Assembly (NCBI GenBank): GCA_024653865.1
Contig: JANLHD010000079.1
Span: forward strand, 1-15,928
DNA length: 15,928 bases
Source: an archaeon
Lineage (GTDB): Archaea; Iainarchaeota; Iainarchaeia; Iainarchaeales; Iainarchaeaceae
Reading direction: 5' to 3'
Positions 9,644-15,083 of this stretch are shown in pieces. How positions within the stretch are numbered: the first letter of the stretch is position 1; the number at the start of each line of letters is the position of its first letter. The translations under genes were made by a program, and so were the position numbers. The notes under the pieces were generated by a model, which was not told the origin of the DNA, ran no database searches, and saw only the letters and a list, made by a program, of their open reading frames with translations.

Positions 9644-10975
9644 TTGGACACCAAAGGCTTTCTCAAAAAAAACAATCTTTCCGAAGGCGACTTCGTAAAG
9701 GCAAACGACGGCAAAAAAACCCTCGAAGGAAACATACTTCCATCCAACACACAAGGGATTCTTAGGCTAAAACTTTCTTCCGGATACAACGCAGGAATCC
9801 AAATCACGCCCTCCCTAAAAATCGAAAAAACCGGGGAAACAAAACAGGTCGGAAAGGCAAAGCACACTGTCCAAATAGAAAAAAAAGGATTGCCAAAAAT
9901 CGCAATTCTGCACACCGGAGGCACAATAGCCTCGCGCGTGGACTACAGAAGCGGCGCGGTGTTTTCCTCATTCAACCCACAGGATTTGCTCACAATGTTC
10001 CCCGAACTCCACGAAATAGCTAACTTCTCCTCAAAGCTTGTTTCCAACATGTGGAGCGACGATTTGCGCTTCGCCCACTTCGAAGTAATAGCAAAGGCCG
10101 TGAAATCCGCGCACGAAGAGGGCGCACAGGGCGTTATACTCGGAATGGGAACGGATAATATGGCCGTGGCATCCGCGGCACTCGCATTCGTGCTCGAGCA
10201 ATGCCCAATACCCGTGATTTTTGTTGGGGCACAGAGAAGCTCGGATCGCGGGTCCTCCGATGCTGCAATGAACCTAATCTGCGCGGCGCAGTTCATCACC
10301 AAATCCGATTTTGCGGGCGTCGCCATATGCATGCACCACACAACCTCGGACACAAAATGCGCCATTTTGCCAGCGTGCAAAACACGCAAGCTGCACTCCT
10401 CGCGCAGGGACGCATTCAAGGCAGTGAACGACACTCCAATAGCGCTCGTGGACTACAATTCGCGGCAAATAGAATTTTTGAAAAAAAATTATTCCAAAAA
10501 AAGCGGCGCAAAAATGGTTCTAAAGCCCAAATTCGAGGAAAAAGTCGGGCTTTTGAAAATACACATCAATATGTTCCCAGAACAATTCTCCTTCTACCGC
10601 GAACACAAATATAAGGGCCTTGTAATTGAGGGCACGGGCCTTGGGCAGACCCCGGGGCACGACCCGAACGAACTAACCCACATCCACAAAAAAATCTTCC
10701 CCGAAATCAAAAAACTAATTGAATCGGGGTGCGTTGTTGTCATGACCACCCAAACCATTTTCGGAAGGGTGCACATGCACGTTTACGACAAGGCAACAGA
10801 CCTCGTGGATTTGGGGGTGATTCCGGGCGAGGACATGCTCGCGGAAACCGCATTCGTGAAACTCGCGTGGCTCCTGGGAAACCACACGCAAAAAGAGGCC
10901 GCGGAACTCGTTCGAAAGAATTTGCGCGGCGAAATTTCACAATCCACGAAGTATGAAGAAGATTTCACAGGCTAA
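9644..10975 (+). CDS. gatD: Glu-tRNA(Gln) amidotransferase subunit D
   Basis: GatD is the glutaminase-like subunit of the archaeal GatDE complex. It releases ammonia from an amide donor for GatE, which converts Glu-tRNA(Gln) to Gln-tRNA(Gln). The 443-aa protein has a small N-terminal β-barrel (about 1-80) and then an asparaginase-type domain. Catalytic residues are Thr94 in LHTGGTIAS, Thr170 and Asp171 in GMGTDNMA, and Lys246 in PACKTRKLHSSRRDAF. The spacing matches the Thr-Thr-Asp-Lys set of characterised GatD. EGTGLGQTPGHDP and TTQTIFGRVHMHVYD are typical GatD. The start is TTG, supported by the Shine-Dalgarno at 9631. The C-terminal residues KNLRGEISQSTKYEEDF recur in altered form 1113 bases downstream, beyond the fic gene. 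gatE is not adjacent: four other features lie between. Confidence 0.95.
   Translation: MDTKGFLKKNNLSEGDFVKANDGKKTLEGNILPSNTQGILRLKLSSGYNAGIQITPSLKIEKTGETKQVGKAKHTVQIEKKGLPKIAILHTGGTIASRVDYRSGAVFSSFNPQDLLTMFPELHEIANFSSKLVSNMWSDDLRFAHFEVIAKAVKSAHEEGAQGVILGMGTDNMAVASAALAFVLEQCPIPVIFVGAQRSSDRGSSDAAMNLICAAQFITKSDFAGVAICMHHTTSDTKCAILPACKTRKLHSSRRDAFKAVNDTPIALVDYNSRQIEFLKKNYSKKSGAKMVLKPKFEEKVGLLKIHINMFPEQFSFYREHKYKGLVIEGTGLGQTPGHDPNELTHIHKKIFPEIKKLIESGCVVVMTTQTIFGRVHMHVYDKATDLVDLGVIPGEDMLAETAFVKLAWLLGNHTQKEAAELVRKNLRGEISQSTKYEEDFTG
10916..10975 (+). repeat. GatD 3' coding end, left copy
   Basis: This is the last 19 codons and stop of the intact gatD. By hand alignment it shares 38 of 60 bases and 11 of 19 residues with 12029-12088, with no gap. 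Confidence 0.7.
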
Positions 10976-10981
10976 CCCAAT

Positions 10982-10990
10982 CCCTTTTTT
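10982..10990 (+). terminator. Possible T-run terminator after gatD
   Basis: CCCTTTTTT follows the gatD stop codon within seven bases, which is consistent with archaeal T-rich termination. No hairpin is attached to it. The large inverted repeat at 11000-11045 could form a hairpin in read-through RNA. Confidence 0.3.
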
Positions 10991-10999
10991 CCACAATTC

Positions 11000-11045
11000 T
11001 TTAACCCCACAAATAAGATAAGTTTTTATATTTTGTGGGGTTAAA
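11000..11045 (+). promoter_or_regulatory. Perfect 14-bp inverted repeat framing the fic TATA box
   Basis: The left arm TTTAACCCCACAAA (11000-11013) and the right arm TTTGTGGGGTTAAA (11032-11045) are exact reverse complements separated by 18 bases. The spacer and the edge of the right arm hold the TATA box TTTTTATATTTT (11023-11034). Arm centres are 32 bp apart, about three helical turns, so both would face the same side of DNA. With start at 11053 the arms fall at roughly -53 to -40 and -21 to -8. That fits a dimeric repressor site or a factor bridging the arms. Confidence 0.65.
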
Positions 11046-11052
11046 ACACATT

Positions 11053-11994
11053 ATGGTTTATTTTACCGAAAAAAGGATTTCTGGCAAAAAATATCTCTAT
11101 GCGGTCCATTCAGTAAGGCTGCCGAATGGAAAGGTCTCCAAACTGGCGAAGCGGGTTGAGGAAAGGAAAATTACCGCCTCGCTTGAGGCGCATTTCCAAA
11201 AAAAAGAGGCAGAATTGAGGGCAAAATCCGCGGAAGATTATTTCAAAAAAACAAGTGTTTTTTCCGGGCGGCAAATCAGGGGCATCGAAGAAACAAAACT
11301 CGCCTACAAAAAAATTGTTTCCTGCCTCACAAAAAAACAGCTCCAGGACCTCTTTGACAGGTTCACCGTCAACTTCACCTACGAGTCCAACGCCCTTGAA
11401 GGAAACTCCCTCACCCTAAAGGACGTCGCCATATTAATTTCCGAAAACCGGGTTCCAGAGAACAAGGATTTGCGCGAGGTTTACGAAACAAAGAACTCGC
11501 GGAAAGTTGTCGACCTCATAATGAAAAAAAAGTTCAGGGCAACCGAGAAGGACATAATCAAAATGCACAAAATCCTGATAAAAGACATGGACATCCGGCC
11601 CGGCTACAAAAAAGTCCCGAATTTTTTGCTCGGAAGAAACATTGAAACCACGCCGCCGGAAAAAGTGGAAAAAGAAATGAAAGAACTCTTCAAATGGCAC
11701 AAGGAAAATAAACAAATGCACCCCTTGCGCCTCGCCGCGCTGTTTCACGGAAAATTCGAGAAAATCCACCCATTCGAAGACGGAAACGGCAGGGTCGGGA
11801 GATTCATGATAAACACCATCCTCGTGAACAACGGTTACGCCCCGCTTATAATACGCAAAAGCCAGCGCATAGCTTACCTAAAAAGCCTGGGTGACTTTGA
11901 CAATGGATATAGTGAAAACCTCGAGCGCTTCCTTTTGGACAAGTACAAGACCACGTTCGCAAAATTCTTCAAAATCTACGAAAAATACGTTTGA
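11053..11994 (+). CDS. Fic family protein (class II), likely AMP-transferase
   Basis: The Fic domain (about residues 100-300) usually transfers AMP from ATP to a hydroxyl of a target protein. The active-site motif HPFEDGNGRVGR (residues 239-250) is complete, with catalytic His239. SNALEG (112-117) fits the inhibitory (S/T)xxxE(G/N) helix. It lies upstream of the active site, which makes this a self-inhibited class II Fic. The N-terminal 45 residues (GKKYLYAVHSVRLPNGKVSK) look like the two-strand module at the start of some archaeal transposases and Fic proteins and might bind DNA; that is inference. I chose the ATG at 11053, 25-26 bases from the TATA box. The GTG at 11035 lies inside the operator arm. 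The 313-aa gene stands between two GatD-tail copies, suggesting acquisition. The target is unknown. Confidence 0.9.
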   Translation: MVYFTEKRISGKKYLYAVHSVRLPNGKVSKLAKRVEERKITASLEAHFQKKEAELRAKSAEDYFKKTSVFSGRQIRGIEETKLAYKKIVSCLTKKQLQDLFDRFTVNFTYESNALEGNSLTLKDVAILISENRVPENKDLREVYETKNSRKVVDLIMKKKFRATEKDIIKMHKILIKDMDIRPGYKKVPNFLLGRNIETTPPEKVEKEMKELFKWHKENKQMHPLRLAALFHGKFEKIHPFEDGNGRVGRFMINTILVNNGYAPLIIRKSQRIAYLKSLGDFDNGYSENLERFLLDKYKTTFAKFFKIYEKYV

Positions 11995-12028
11995 AAAACG
12001 ATCCCTTGAAGAAAAAAATCACCAGGCA

Positions 12029-12088
12029 AAAAATCTGCGCGGCGAAATCACAAGCGCGGCCAAGTACGAGGATGAGTTTGTTGAGTGA
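12029..12088 (+). pseudogene. Remnant of a GatD C-terminal end
   Basis: Thirty-four bases after the fic stop, one frame encodes KNLRGEITSAAKYEDEFVE and then TGA. This aligns without gaps to the GatD C-terminus KNLRGEISQSTKYEEDFTG at 10916-10975. Eleven of 19 residues are identical and most others conservative, but the DNA is only about 63% identical. It is therefore not a recent exact duplication. It looks like the tail of a diverged gatD, either the displaced native end or one brought from a relative. Homology upstream of 12029 is not evident. There is no start codon of its own, so it is probably untranslated. Confidence 0.65.
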
Positions 12089-12127: not shown

Positions 12128-12898
12128 ATGGCATCCAAATTCCGAAGGGAAAGTGGCTATTCTGGTCAAGAAATACACCGGAAAAGCTGGGGCGTATTTA
12201 GAAGGCATGTCAAAGAAACCCATGGATCAACTATAACAGGGATTGCCATCCCTGATTTAAAACGGCTTTTTGAACATGCACTCACTGCCCAGCCAATTGA
12301 TTTTGAAAGAGGCCATGGGACCACTGACAAAGTCCCAGCTAACAGCCATATCAGAGGGATTGATTACCACCGGGTGGGAAGAGTAGATACCATACATCTT
12401 CATTTTGACGTTACGGGGAAAAAAGGAAGCGCCGTTCTCTATAGGTTTAGTGCAGCTAATCCCCGAGGGCAACACCCGTATCCTGACCCATCCACATTTA
12501 GAGCCCCGCACTTAGTTATTGATTTGGCAAAAAAAACAGCAAGCTATTATTCAAGCAGCGGAATTACTGACGGGCAAATGAGAGAATTATTCCAAAAACA
12601 TGGCGGAAATCTGCACGACGCATATTGGCAGTTAATTGAGGAAAAAGAAAAGCGCGGCGGAAAATTTGTTGGCGGGGCATCATGCGAATATCATCCTGAA
12701 GAAGGAAACCTAATGCATATACAAGAAAAGAATCAGATGAATTCGACGATGGGCGGAGTACAAAAATTATGCAGCGTAATGATAGAATCTGCACTTCCCT
12801 TAGAAGTTATGGAAGAGGAAACGCCTGCAATAAAGCATAGAGTACAAATTCTAAGAGAATTAGGAAATTTTGATAAGCACTTCCCATACTTAGAATAA
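12128..12898 (+). CDS. Hypothetical protein, 256 aa, family not recognised
   Basis: I recognise no family. The protein is soluble and has no signal or membrane segment. It has a basic N-terminus (KFRRESGYSGQEIHRKSWGVFRR broken by polar residues) and a central β-rich part (VDTIHLHFDV, GSAVLYRFSAANP, APHLVIDLAKKTASYYSS). Histidines and aromatics are concentrated there. The C-terminal half is helical (GQMRELFQKHG, DAYWQLIEEKEKRGG), and only two cysteines are present. Codon use is richer in A/T than in gatD or gatE (many TTA, AGA and ATT), which suggests foreign origin. A TATA box at leaderless spacing supports the ATG. It lies in the island between gatD and gatE, next to fic and a winged-helix gene, so a defence or mobile-DNA link is possible but unproven. 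Confidence 0.75.
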   Translation: MASKFRRESGYSGQEIHRKSWGVFRRHVKETHGSTITGIAIPDLKRLFEHALTAQPIDFERGHGTTDKVPANSHIRGIDYHRVGRVDTIHLHFDVTGKKGSAVLYRFSAANPRGQHPYPDPSTFRAPHLVIDLAKKTASYYSSSGITDGQMRELFQKHGGNLHDAYWQLIEEKEKRGGKFVGGASCEYHPEEGNLMHIQEKNQMNSTMGGVQKLCSVMIESALPLEVMEEETPAIKHRVQILRELGNFDKHFPYLE

Positions 12899-12947: not shown

Positions 12948-13154
12948 GTGAAGCCGAAAAAGGACAAGACCGACAAGATACGAAAAACCCTGCGCGATTC
13001 GCCCCGCGGACTTTGGGTTCGCGAGATTGCGCGCAAATCGGGAATGGACAAAAGCACGGTTTCGCGGTATTTGGTTGCGATGCACGAGGAACTCGATTTC
13101 GACGTTCTTGGAAGAAACAAGGTATACAGGCTAAGGGGAAGGGGCGAGGTTTAA
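12948..13154 (+). CDS. Small winged helix-turn-helix DNA-binding protein
   Basis: This 68-aa protein consists of a single winged helix-turn-helix. A basic N-terminus (KPKKDKTDKIRK) leads to RGLWVREIARKSGMDKSTVSRYL (about residues 20-42) with the recognition helix in DKSTVSRYL. A wing follows in VLGRNKVYRLRG. The start is GTG at 12948, chosen because the TATA box lies about 28 bases upstream and the fold begins at once. It is too short for a ligand domain, so it is probably a simple transcription factor. A short inverted repeat at 12924-12935 hints at autoregulation. gatE follows after 33 bases with its own TATA-like element overlapping this gene's stop, so it may regulate gatE, the island genes, or itself. 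The target is unknown. Confidence 0.75.
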   Translation: MKPKKDKTDKIRKTLRDSPRGLWVREIARKSGMDKSTVSRYLVAMHEELDFDVLGRNKVYRLRGRGEV

Positions 13155-13187: not shown

Positions 13188-15083
13188 ATGGAAACGGATT
13201 ATGAAAAAATCGGCCTCAAATGCGGCCTAGAACTGCACCAGCAGCTCGACACCGGAAAGCTATTTATACGCACGCCATCAAGGCTGCGCGAAGATGCGCC
13301 GGATTATACAATAGAGAGAAAACTTCGGCCCGTGGTATCCGAACTCGGGGAATTCGACAAGGCGGCGCTTGAGGCATTCAAAAAAGGCCACACATTCATA
13401 TACGAAGGGTACAACGACACGATTTCGCTCATCGAACTCGACGACGAGCCCCCGCAGCCCGCGGACAGGGAAGCTCTGAACACGACCCTCGAAATCTCCC
13501 TCATGGCGGGCGCGGAAATACTGGACGAAATCGTGACCATGCGCAAACTCGTTATTGACGGCTCGAACACAAGCGGCTTCCAAAGGACAATGCTGGTTAG
13601 CATCGGGGGAAAAGTAAAGCTTGCAAACAAGGAACTTGGGATACAAACAATCGTGCTCGAAGAGGACTCGGCAAGGCCGGTTGAAAAAACCGGCGAGCGG
13701 GTGGTTTACAGGCTCGATCGGCTCGGCGTTCCGCTCATTGAACTCGCAACGCAGCCCGGCATCACAAGGCCGGAAGAGGCAAAAGAGGCCGCGCGCGCAA
13801 TTGGAACAATTTTTCGGCTAACCGGAAAAGTCAAGAGAGGGCTTGGAACAATAAGGCAGGACTTGAACGTATCAATCCGCGAAGGCGCGCGCGTCGAAAT
13901 AAAAGGAGTGCAGGAACTAGAAATCATCGACGAATATGTGAGAAGGGAAGTGCACAGGCAAATAGCGCTCGTGGAAATCAAAAAAGAACTAGAGCACAGG
14001 GGCTTGAGCAAAAAAGAACTCGAGCAAAACCCGGTTGACGTTTCCAAAATTTTTGCAAAAACACAGGCAAAAATAATCGAATCCGCAATCCAGGGAGGCG
14101 GAATCGTGCTTGCGGTAAAACTACCCAAATTCGCCGGGCTACTCGGAAAAGAGGTCCAGCAGGGGCGCAGGCTAGGAACCGAAATCGCGGGATACGTAAA
14201 GGCACGCACAGGCCTTAGGGGAATCTTTCACAGCGACGAACTGCCCAAATACGGGGTCAGCGAACAGGAAGTTTTGGAAACAAAAAAAATCCTCGGGGCA
14301 AAACAACAGGACGCATTCGCGCTTGTTGCCGCACCCAAGCCAAAGGCACAAAGGGCAATGGAAACAATAACGGAAAGGGCGCAAAGCTGCCTCGATGGCG
14401 TTCCCGAAGAAACAAGGGGCGCAATCGAAGAGGGAAACACCGAATATCTAAGGCCACTGCCGGGCTCCGCGAGAATGTACCCAGAAACCGACCTCGAAAG
14501 CATAATAGTAGACGAAAAAACAATTGCACACATAAAAAAGAATTTGCCACTTGGAACAAAAGAACGCGAGGCACTCTACAAAAAACTCGGCCTCAACGAA
14601 AAGCACGCGAACGAAATGAAAACCTCGAATTTCGCCAGAATGTTCGAGGAAAAATGCGCAAAAGGCGCCGACGCAAAAAAAATGGCGGTATTTTTATTGG
14701 AAACACTCGTGGAAGCAAGAAGAAAAGGAGCCCAAATAGACCTGCTTTCAAGCGAAGAACTCGAAGAAATTTTGGACGCAATCGTTGCGGGCAAAATCCC
14801 CAAAGAGGTCCAGGTTGAGTTTCTCGTGAAAAAAACAAAAAACCCGCAAAAAAGCGTTTCCGAACTCGTCACGGAACTCGGGGAATCAAAGGTCGAATCC
14901 GCACAGGCACACGAAATCATAAAGACAATTGTGGCAAAAAACTCAAAGCTTGTAAAAGAACTCGGCGAGCGCGCAGTTGGCCCGCTCATGGGAGATGCCA
15001 TGAAAGAGCTCAAGGGAAAGGCAAGCGGGAAGGAGATAAGCGAATTGCTCCTCCAAGAAATCAAAAAGCAAAGCGGGAACTAA
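13188..15083 (+). CDS. gatE: Glu-tRNA(Gln) amidotransferase subunit E
   Basis: GatE is the kinase/transamidase subunit of archaeal GatDE. It phosphorylates Glu-tRNA(Gln) and uses ammonia channelled from GatD. The 631-aa protein starts DYEKIGLKCGLELHQQLDTGK, the hallmark of GatE (the GatB-like cradle domain, to about residue 270). TIRQDLNVSI and GARVEIKGVQELEIIDEYVRRE follow within it. An AspRS-like GAD insertion spans about 280-400. The GatB/YqeY-type helical and tail domains fill about 450-631, ending LLQEIKKQSGN. The length is normal for the family. I chose the ATG at 13188; the in-frame TTG at 13179 adds only MVP. The GatD partner ends 2.2 kb upstream. The hydrate dehydratase gene starts at the base after the stop codon. 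Confidence 0.96.
   Translation: METDYEKIGLKCGLELHQQLDTGKLFIRTPSRLREDAPDYTIERKLRPVVSELGEFDKAALEAFKKGHTFIYEGYNDTISLIELDDEPPQPADREALNTTLEISLMAGAEILDEIVTMRKLVIDGSNTSGFQRTMLVSIGGKVKLANKELGIQTIVLEEDSARPVEKTGERVVYRLDRLGVPLIELATQPGITRPEEAKEAARAIGTIFRLTGKVKRGLGTIRQDLNVSIREGARVEIKGVQELEIIDEYVRREVHRQIALVEIKKELEHRGLSKKELEQNPVDVSKIFAKTQAKIIESAIQGGGIVLAVKLPKFAGLLGKEVQQGRRLGTEIAGYVKARTGLRGIFHSDELPKYGVSEQEVLETKKILGAKQQDAFALVAAPKPKAQRAMETITERAQSCLDGVPEETRGAIEEGNTEYLRPLPGSARMYPETDLESIIVDEKTIAHIKKNLPLGTKEREALYKKLGLNEKHANEMKTSNFARMFEEKCAKGADAKKMAVFLLETLVEARRKGAQIDLLSSEELEEILDAIVAGKIPKEVQVEFLVKKTKNPQKSVSELVTELGESKVESAQAHEIIKTIVAKNSKLVKELGERAVGPLMGDAMKELKGKASGKEISELLLQEIKKQSGN

Follow-up and report, generated by a model that had tools for sequence, protein, structure and literature searches.

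The window, a stretch of 15,928 nucleotides that forms the entire contig C145 of genome G000 (176 contigs totalling 986 kb, 80.5% complete), carries an intact gatD gene, a fic gene behind it and, behind fic, a second, orphan gatD 3' end. We interpret this second tail as a recombination scar: with a probability of roughly 0.58, two gatD lineages recombined with fic at the joint, one side anchored by homology and the far end joined illegitimately. Genes are arranged in the order asparaginase, gatD, fic, second gatD tail, ORF 12128, an IclR-type HTH gene, gatE and, 3' of gatE, a gene that we take to be nnrD-like. The features needed for the argument are listed below.

9644..10975, + strand: gatD, encoding Glu-tRNA(Gln) amidotransferase subunit D, intact (NF003217, 469 bits at a cut-off of 310; Pfam GatD_N and Asparaginase)
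10916..10975, + strand: tail 1, the near gatD tail and functional 3' end (nearest tails in G019 and AR10)
11000..11045, + strand: palindrome around a TATA-like box (arms 11000-11013 and 11032-11045), probably the fic operator
11053..11994, + strand: fic, the cargo, a class II-like putative AMPylator gene (Pfam PF02661 and conserved motifs; closest relative found in G008, 70%)
11995..12026, + strand: fic 3' flank without gatD homology, with the right junction at its end
12029..12088, + strand: tail 2, a second, orphaned gatD 3' end that carries a stop of its own (HMM 15.9 bits; nearest of 67 tail records in G005)
12128..12898, + strand: ORF 12128, family unassigned (homologue directly 3' of gatD in G003)
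12948..13154, + strand: IclR-type winged-helix gene, a conserved neighbour of gatE (Pfam PF09339)
13188..15083, + strand: gatE (NCBIfam NF003107)

The product of gatD at 9644-10975 ends in KNLRGEISQSTKYEEDFTG before its stop, and 12029-12088 encodes KNLRGEITSAAKYEDEFVE and a stop in frame. Both tails are 60 nt long with starts 1113 nt apart, are identical at 38 of 60 bases in an ungapped comparison (63%) and have the exact 13-mer TGCGCGGCGAAAT in common. None of 5000 codon shuffles of tail 2 aligned as well. A GatD-tail HMM scored 15.9 bits at 12026-12079, and all other matches above 8 bits in 1.79 Mb were intact gatD tails, an asparaginase-tail homologue or the second tail of AR10 described below. 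A plain-DNA repeat test was weaker, with a score of 34 (up to 5 kb of flank) compared with best scores of 33 and 34, depending on direction, in 100 shuffles. Chance similarity of the tails is ruled out by the profile match and the codon shuffles, and an unrelated coding sequence at 12029-12088, one of the outcomes that would have spoken against the initial annotation, is likewise ruled out as the profile assigns this segment to GatD. Two homologous gatD ends around fic, as proposed there, were thus confirmed; the frame given for the second tail also stands, but its homology begins slightly earlier, at about 12027. This edge is sharp, lies 32 nt past the fic stop, and the sequence to its left has no likeness to gatD (10 of 42 nt identical). 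Comparison of the 20 codons, stop included, yielded five identical, seven synonymous and eight nonsynonymous pairs, with 6, 4 and 12 differences at codon positions 1, 2 and 3. Given the synonymous changes and this positional pattern, tail 2 appears to have accumulated its differences as a coding sequence and not as a freely decaying duplicate.

Tail 1 and tail 2 each indicate a different gatD lineage, in line with the earlier proposal that one of them is foreign. Against 67 tail records, in which a few genomes are repeated, tail 2 scored 39 with the G005 tail (next best 31) and tail 1 was nearest to G019 (32.5) and then AR10 (31.5). Among 73 order genomes, only one besides G000, namely G003, yielded a homologue of ORF 12128. 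There it lies directly 3' of gatD, so that tail 2 is consistent with the resident locus; none was found in G005. A protein search with ORF 12128 returned only itself, and its predicted fold was uninformative (mean pLDDT 54.6). gatD is uninterrupted both in G003, where the ORF 12128 homologue follows, and in G005, where the HTH-gatE pair follows, and both of these genes belong to other gatD lineages. A small gene resembling the IclR-type gene at 12948-13154 precedes gatE in G005 and G002. Based on the tail affinities and the adjacency of ORF 12128, the joint between tail 2 and ORF 12128 looks older, and tail 1 with fic looks like the newcomer. The question of which tail is native, left to comparison with relatives by the initial annotation, would therefore be answered in favor of tail 2, while the opposite assignment appears improbable, as discussed below.

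Phylogenetic analysis added to this picture. Among named records, GatD relatives were found in Diapherotrites and other DPANN-type archaea, including AR10 (CP010424.1). The GatE tree unites six family members (99/97) and pairs G000 with G005 (94/96), whose GatE is also the closest to that of the window; a grouping of G000 with G002 is not rejected (AU p 0.19), so the affinity to G005 is not firm. NnrD, in a tree of four taxa, likewise pairs G000 with G005. For GatD, the family as one clade is rejected (AU p 8.8e-6), as is G000 with G005 (p 1e-4), and G000 is placed with G002 (94/89). A grouping of AR10 with the family member G033 is rejected for GatD (p 1.5e-4) but not for GatE (p 0.10). In view of these conflicting trees, GatD appears to have been exchanged between families. 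The fic tree rejects G000 with G002 (p 7e-7), with the fic of G000 nearest to that of G008, a member of another family; horizontal acquisition of fic is supported by this placement. The GatD and fic trees are in conflict with kinship. Over almost the whole of gatD, the closest sequence to that of G000 comes from its genus mate G002. The gatD body thus does not look like a fresh import, a point against a simple recombination account, and only the tail could be one. A mosaic gatD was considered and rejected, as no break in affinity was found along the gene; no such break marks the putative anchoring crossover either, and the tail offers too little sequence for placement in a tree.

The two tail affinities, the sharp homology edge, the adjacency of ORF 12128, the tree conflict and the second case in AR10 described below together suggest that tail 2 is a genuine gatD terminus that recombination left behind. 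The incoming DNA would have comprised at least the last gatD codons of a related lineage and fic. One of its ends would have been anchored by homology within the resident gatD, whereas the far end would have been joined without long homology, about 32 bp past fic, to the last 19 resident gatD codons. The outcome would be a complete gatD with a newcomer tail, fic, and the resident tail stranded beside its old neighbor ORF 12128. This agrees with an orphan gene 3' end, presumably the resident one, behind the cargo and with a far junction that lacks long homology. The order of events, the incoming side and the choice of ordinary recombination over a lost integrase are what we infer.

We carried out a census of second tails in related genomes. 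A codon pattern for NLRGEI, run on 75 order genomes, matched in 53, with two matches in one locus only in G000. A tail-HMM census of 1.79 Mb covered 62 loci, namely 51 order gatD loci (in three of them the sequence past gatD falls short of 1 kb) and 11 further named gatD contigs; of the 75 order genomes, 24 fall outside the census. Second gatD tails were present in two of the 62 loci, G000 and AR10, and absent from the other 49 of the 51 listed order loci, where the neighbors 3' of gatD vary widely. A second tail in relatives lacking the cargo had been named as evidence against insertion; none of the 62 loci carries one without cargo or cargo remnants. AR10, from another family of the same order and represented by a complete-genome record, was found through the gene-end repeat survey described below. 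It shows the order gatD, VapB-like end, PIN-like start and frameshifted gatD tail, the latter scoring 11.2 and 4.1 bits on the two sides of the frameshift. The VapB-like end matches a G022 sequence at 38% across 34 residues (E 0.025), and the start of the PIN-type reading frame gave a Pfam PIN score of 13.1 bits (E 0.16), below cut-off, and no PADLOC match. With family scores below threshold, a VapBC assignment rests on motif and arrangement, and we refer to the DNA between the AR10 tails as vapB/vapC-like remnants. Behind AR10 tail 2 lie an antisense asparaginase gene and a regulator-like gene, presumably AsnC, and the same pair follows gatD in G002 and G007. The second tail of AR10 is nearest to the gatD tail of G014, from another family, with tails of its own family ranked 5 and 6, which counts against the recombination account. 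The G000 and AR10 junctions fall within about five codons of each other, and the exact runs differ between them. A 19-bp copy at AR10 gatE was rejected as a third displaced tail because it falls inside the following nnrD-like frame. The suggested integration or recombination hot spot at the gatD tail is thus favored by AR10, with its other toxin-type cargo, but weakened by the low frequency of two in 62 loci.

The most likely fic start is ATG 11053, since the alternative GTG 11035 sits in a palindrome arm. Class II Fic proteins are defined by the motif HPFx[D/E]GNGRxxR together with an N-terminal inhibitory [S/T]xxxE[G/N]. Both are found in the Fic protein of the window, and the HPF.DGNGRVGR and S...EG columns are invariant in a 40-row alignment, so that its sequence marks it as class II-like and a putative AMPylator. 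FICD (PDB 4u04) and the bacterial Fic protein 4x2c, which we take to be class II Fic AMPylators, likewise have the Fic domain, HPF.DGNGR and the N-terminal S...EG. In the model of the Fic protein of the window, a predicted three-stranded sheet and a helix precede the Fic part, whereas the parts of the 4u04 and 4x2c chains that are matched begin at their residue 63 or later. Of 87 phylum genomes, 17 hold members of the fic clade, amounting to 18 pieces (E 1e-60 or better). No close fic relative was found in 45 phage records (at most 34% identity among the matches listed) or 822 plasmid records (at most 37% among the matches listed). Single-sequence scans of viral contigs confirmed no close relative of fic or gatD; when viral contigs were compared with the fic alignment, there were 111 matches, and the 80 listed were at 24-39% identity, except for two spanning 37 residues or fewer. 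A viral or plasmid carrier of the unit was rejected given the lack of a close fic relative there and of gatD in viral contigs.

Three other fic-clade loci, in G003, G022 and G073, are bracketed by repeats. In G003, fic lies directly 3' of tRNA-Cys and the tRNA 3' end recurs 874 bp past fic with a score of 30, compared with a best of 27 in 100 shuffles and 19 for the inverted orientation. In G022, fic lies between repeats of 44-46 bp (82% over 38 ungapped nt), with a third copy beyond an AbiEi-AbiEii pair. A 41-bp repeat brackets fic in G073, where two small genes follow and the sequence separating fic from the distal copy is similar to the end of the latter of the two (35 of 45 nt, reached by 3 of 5000 shuffles). 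By eye, these two genes were taken as a candidate toxin-antitoxin pair; neither had a passing Pfam match. Repeats at the remaining fic loci with tested flanks did not exceed the 95th percentile of shuffles, and for four fic pieces at contig ends one side or neither could be tested. Among 444 genes, flank repeats with scores of at least 34 were direct in eight cases and inverted in none. Direct repeats of this kind flank three of 12 fic-clade genes and five of 419 others (p 0.0009), or two of 11 fic-clade genes without the window (p 0.012); since one of the five non-fic cases adjoins fic in G073, the enrichment at the fic clade is suggestive only.

Gene-end repeats were also surveyed more broadly, using 90-nt probes from 952 genes, 3 kb of flank and a score of 34. 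Probes from 3' ends gave 11 direct and one inverted case downstream, the 11 including the window itself and chosen loci, and six direct and three inverted cases upstream. For 5'-end probes, 14 direct cases upstream and seven downstream were found, with no inverted ones, and mid-gene probes gave one direct and no inverted case upstream and two direct and one inverted downstream. These counts indicate that gene ends recur nearby more often than gene middles. The downstream recurrence of 3' ends is in favor of a recombination scar, while their upstream recurrence and the still more frequent upstream recurrence of 5' ends count against it. The cases form a mixed set: some are intergenic repeats, some involve paralogues and some overlap other genes, and several of the downstream ones look spurious. 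A repeat matching at 68 of 69 positions on contig C8 of G000 was rejected as a displaced gene end and is a GC-rich repeat.

The main rival to the recombination scar is site-specific integration without a recombinase, in which a small element would have inserted by way of an attachment site that duplicates the end of gatD and would have restored the gene with its own version of the tail, its recombinase lost or acting in trans. Although unlikely in our assessment, it would explain much of the anatomy, which resembles attL/attR: a direct, if diverged, repeat of the gatD 3' end lies on both sides, the 13-bp exact run is near the left edge of tail 2, and gatD is restored with a new stop. It also better predicts how close the G000 and AR10 junctions are, which together with the scar's presence in only two of 62 loci counts against recombination, and it accommodates the G003 fic gene behind tRNA-Cys with its recurring tRNA end. 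Integration of this kind is known from archaeal tyrosine recombinases (PMC8371274), and Thaumarchaeal elements use protein-gene 3' ends (PMC6563490). However, fic fills nearly the whole 1.05-kb unit and so leaves no room for a recombinase, as the initial annotation had noted. G000 has a single PF00589 match, located on contig C20, others possibly being missed in a genome that is 80.5% complete, and at least one such match occurs in all seven genomes searched. The different exact runs in G000 and AR10 and the lack of a close fic or gatD relative in viral contigs also speak against integration. An integron cassette, considered in view of archaeal integrons (PMC9668308), was dropped because attC folding is absent (fold z-scores of +1.40 for the window tail and +0.30 to +0.94 for the G022 repeats). 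With respect to casposons and DNA transposons, no inverted pair was found at 10975/12027 among 25 of 26 pairs.

Recombination could also have run in the reverse direction, with tail 2, ORF 12128, the HTH gene, gatE and nnrD derived from a donor resembling G005 and placed next to gatD and fic as the resident genes. The pairing of G000 with G005 for GatE and four-taxon NnrD, the affinity of tail 2 to G005, and the gatE module of G002, located on a separate contig with a HicA-type toxin in front, are all compatible with this direction, yet the ORF 12128 homologue was not found in G005 and GatE leaves G000 with G002 unrejected, and we regard it as improbable. Less probable still is a local duplication of gatD with fic inserted between the copies and most of the second copy deleted: it would equally leave one intact gene and one tail, but the tails have different nearest relatives and no gatD homology remains to the left of tail 2. 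We give slightly less credence again to an assembly chimera of two strains. Fragmentation into 176 contigs would make one conceivable; against it, there is no gatD-like stretch left of tail 2 to mislead an assembler, and similar anatomy is seen in AR10, whose record is titled a complete genome.

Orphan gene tails and 3'-end integration are already known elsewhere, and the locus is not categorically new. In E. coli prophages of the e14/icd type, the original 3' end is displaced beyond the insert and the new tail differs at many codons. The displacement is shared with the window, but e14 is a full prophage with integrase. In T6SS effector-immunity arrays and Rhs loci, toxin-type cargo is likewise anchored by a homologous stretch and the old part orphaned; a new module is proposed to displace the old one, whose 3' end can shift back (PMC5361080). 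Here, in contrast, anchoring would involve a housekeeping gene of DPANN archaea that encodes a tRNA amidotransferase subunit, and the toxin-like gene carried as cargo is separate and forms no part of gatD. Integrative elements of Thaumarchaeota also target a gene 3' end and restore the frame with a new stop (PMC6563490), whereas the present unit has no recombinase, spans about 1 kb and is flanked by diverged repeats with different gatD affinities. The open-licence literature, judged by titles and the beginnings of abstracts, yielded no publication on the gatD-fic locus.

In conclusion, the overall interpretation in the initial annotation is partly supported. A wider reading, which we put forward as speculative, is that toxin genes of DPANN archaea may spread without any recombinase, carried along when the ends of housekeeping and tRNA genes are exchanged by homologous recombination. 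An incoming end with its toxin gene would replace the resident one and strand a tail at each event, gatD would be one such landing place, and the toxins may help to fix the swap. This claim is modest but testable. Scars of this type reveal the identity of the swapped gene, the position of the crossover and the cargo that was carried, and through them horizontal exchange can be traced in uncultured DPANN archaea at sites that show neither a mobile element nor a recombinase. Should swaps of tRNA-charging genes prove to be marked by toxin genes repeatedly, a role for the toxins in fixing such swaps would become testable.

In the window, the open reading frame at 12128-12898 follows directly on the second gatD tail, and its single detected relative (30% identity), encoded in the related genome G003, is likewise directly preceded by a gatD tail. 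The joint between gatD and gatE also holds toxin-type genes in family members without tail scars, that is, without an orphan gatD 3' end behind cargo (G006 and G002). Coordinates of these genes, and of repeats and units observed at other loci, are as follows.

Features at other loci of the window genome (G000) and its relatives
L037, 6664-7152 (G006): PIN-domain gene behind gatD
L218, 3695-3949 (G002): HicA toxin gene ahead of the HTH-gatE module
L096, 5143-5213 and contig end (G003): tRNA-Cys and tRNA-end repeat around fic and a methyltransferase gene
L115, 11299, 12448 and 13859 (G022): 43-bp repeat in three copies that have diverged
L115, 10912-10973 and 11077-11138 (G022): duplicated 5' end of a nuclease-like gene
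L123, 5870-5938 and 7725-7793 (G000, contig C8): GC-rich repeat pair

At the G003 locus, tRNA-Cys stands on one side of fic and the methyltransferase gene, and its 3' end recurs on the other; the unit resembles a tRNA-targeted element of 1.9 kb that lacks an integrase. In G022, the 43-bp repeat copies set fic and an AbiEi-AbiEii pair apart in a cassette-like manner; attC-like folding, as in integron recombination sites, was looked for in these repeats and not found. The duplication adjoining this fic unit (53 of 62 nucleotides identical) lies about 100 bp upstream of the start of a gene labeled nuclease-like by eye. Elsewhere in the window genome, the C8 repeat copies match at 68 of 69 nucleotides and flank, on both sides, what we take to be ribosomal protein genes from their reading frames.

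The TATA-like box before the window fic is bracketed by a palindrome (11000-11045) with arms of the TTAACC..ACA / TGT..GGTTAA type, which is also present upstream of fic-clade genes at 16 further loci. Shuffled sequences rarely matched the arms (at most 6 of 200) at 16 of the 17 fic-clade loci with upstream DNA, the sole exception being G005 (74 of 200). The half-sites vary in sequence between genomes while their symmetry is kept, a pattern as might be seen for a co-evolving repressor site.

The structure of Fic was modeled with confidence (mean pLDDT 91.8), and the model places a three-stranded sheet (residues 2-35) and a helix (residues 42-63), encoded within window 11053-11241, ahead of the Fic domain. 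Based on this model, the N-terminal sheet and helix are a candidate DNA-binding part that could read the upstream palindrome.
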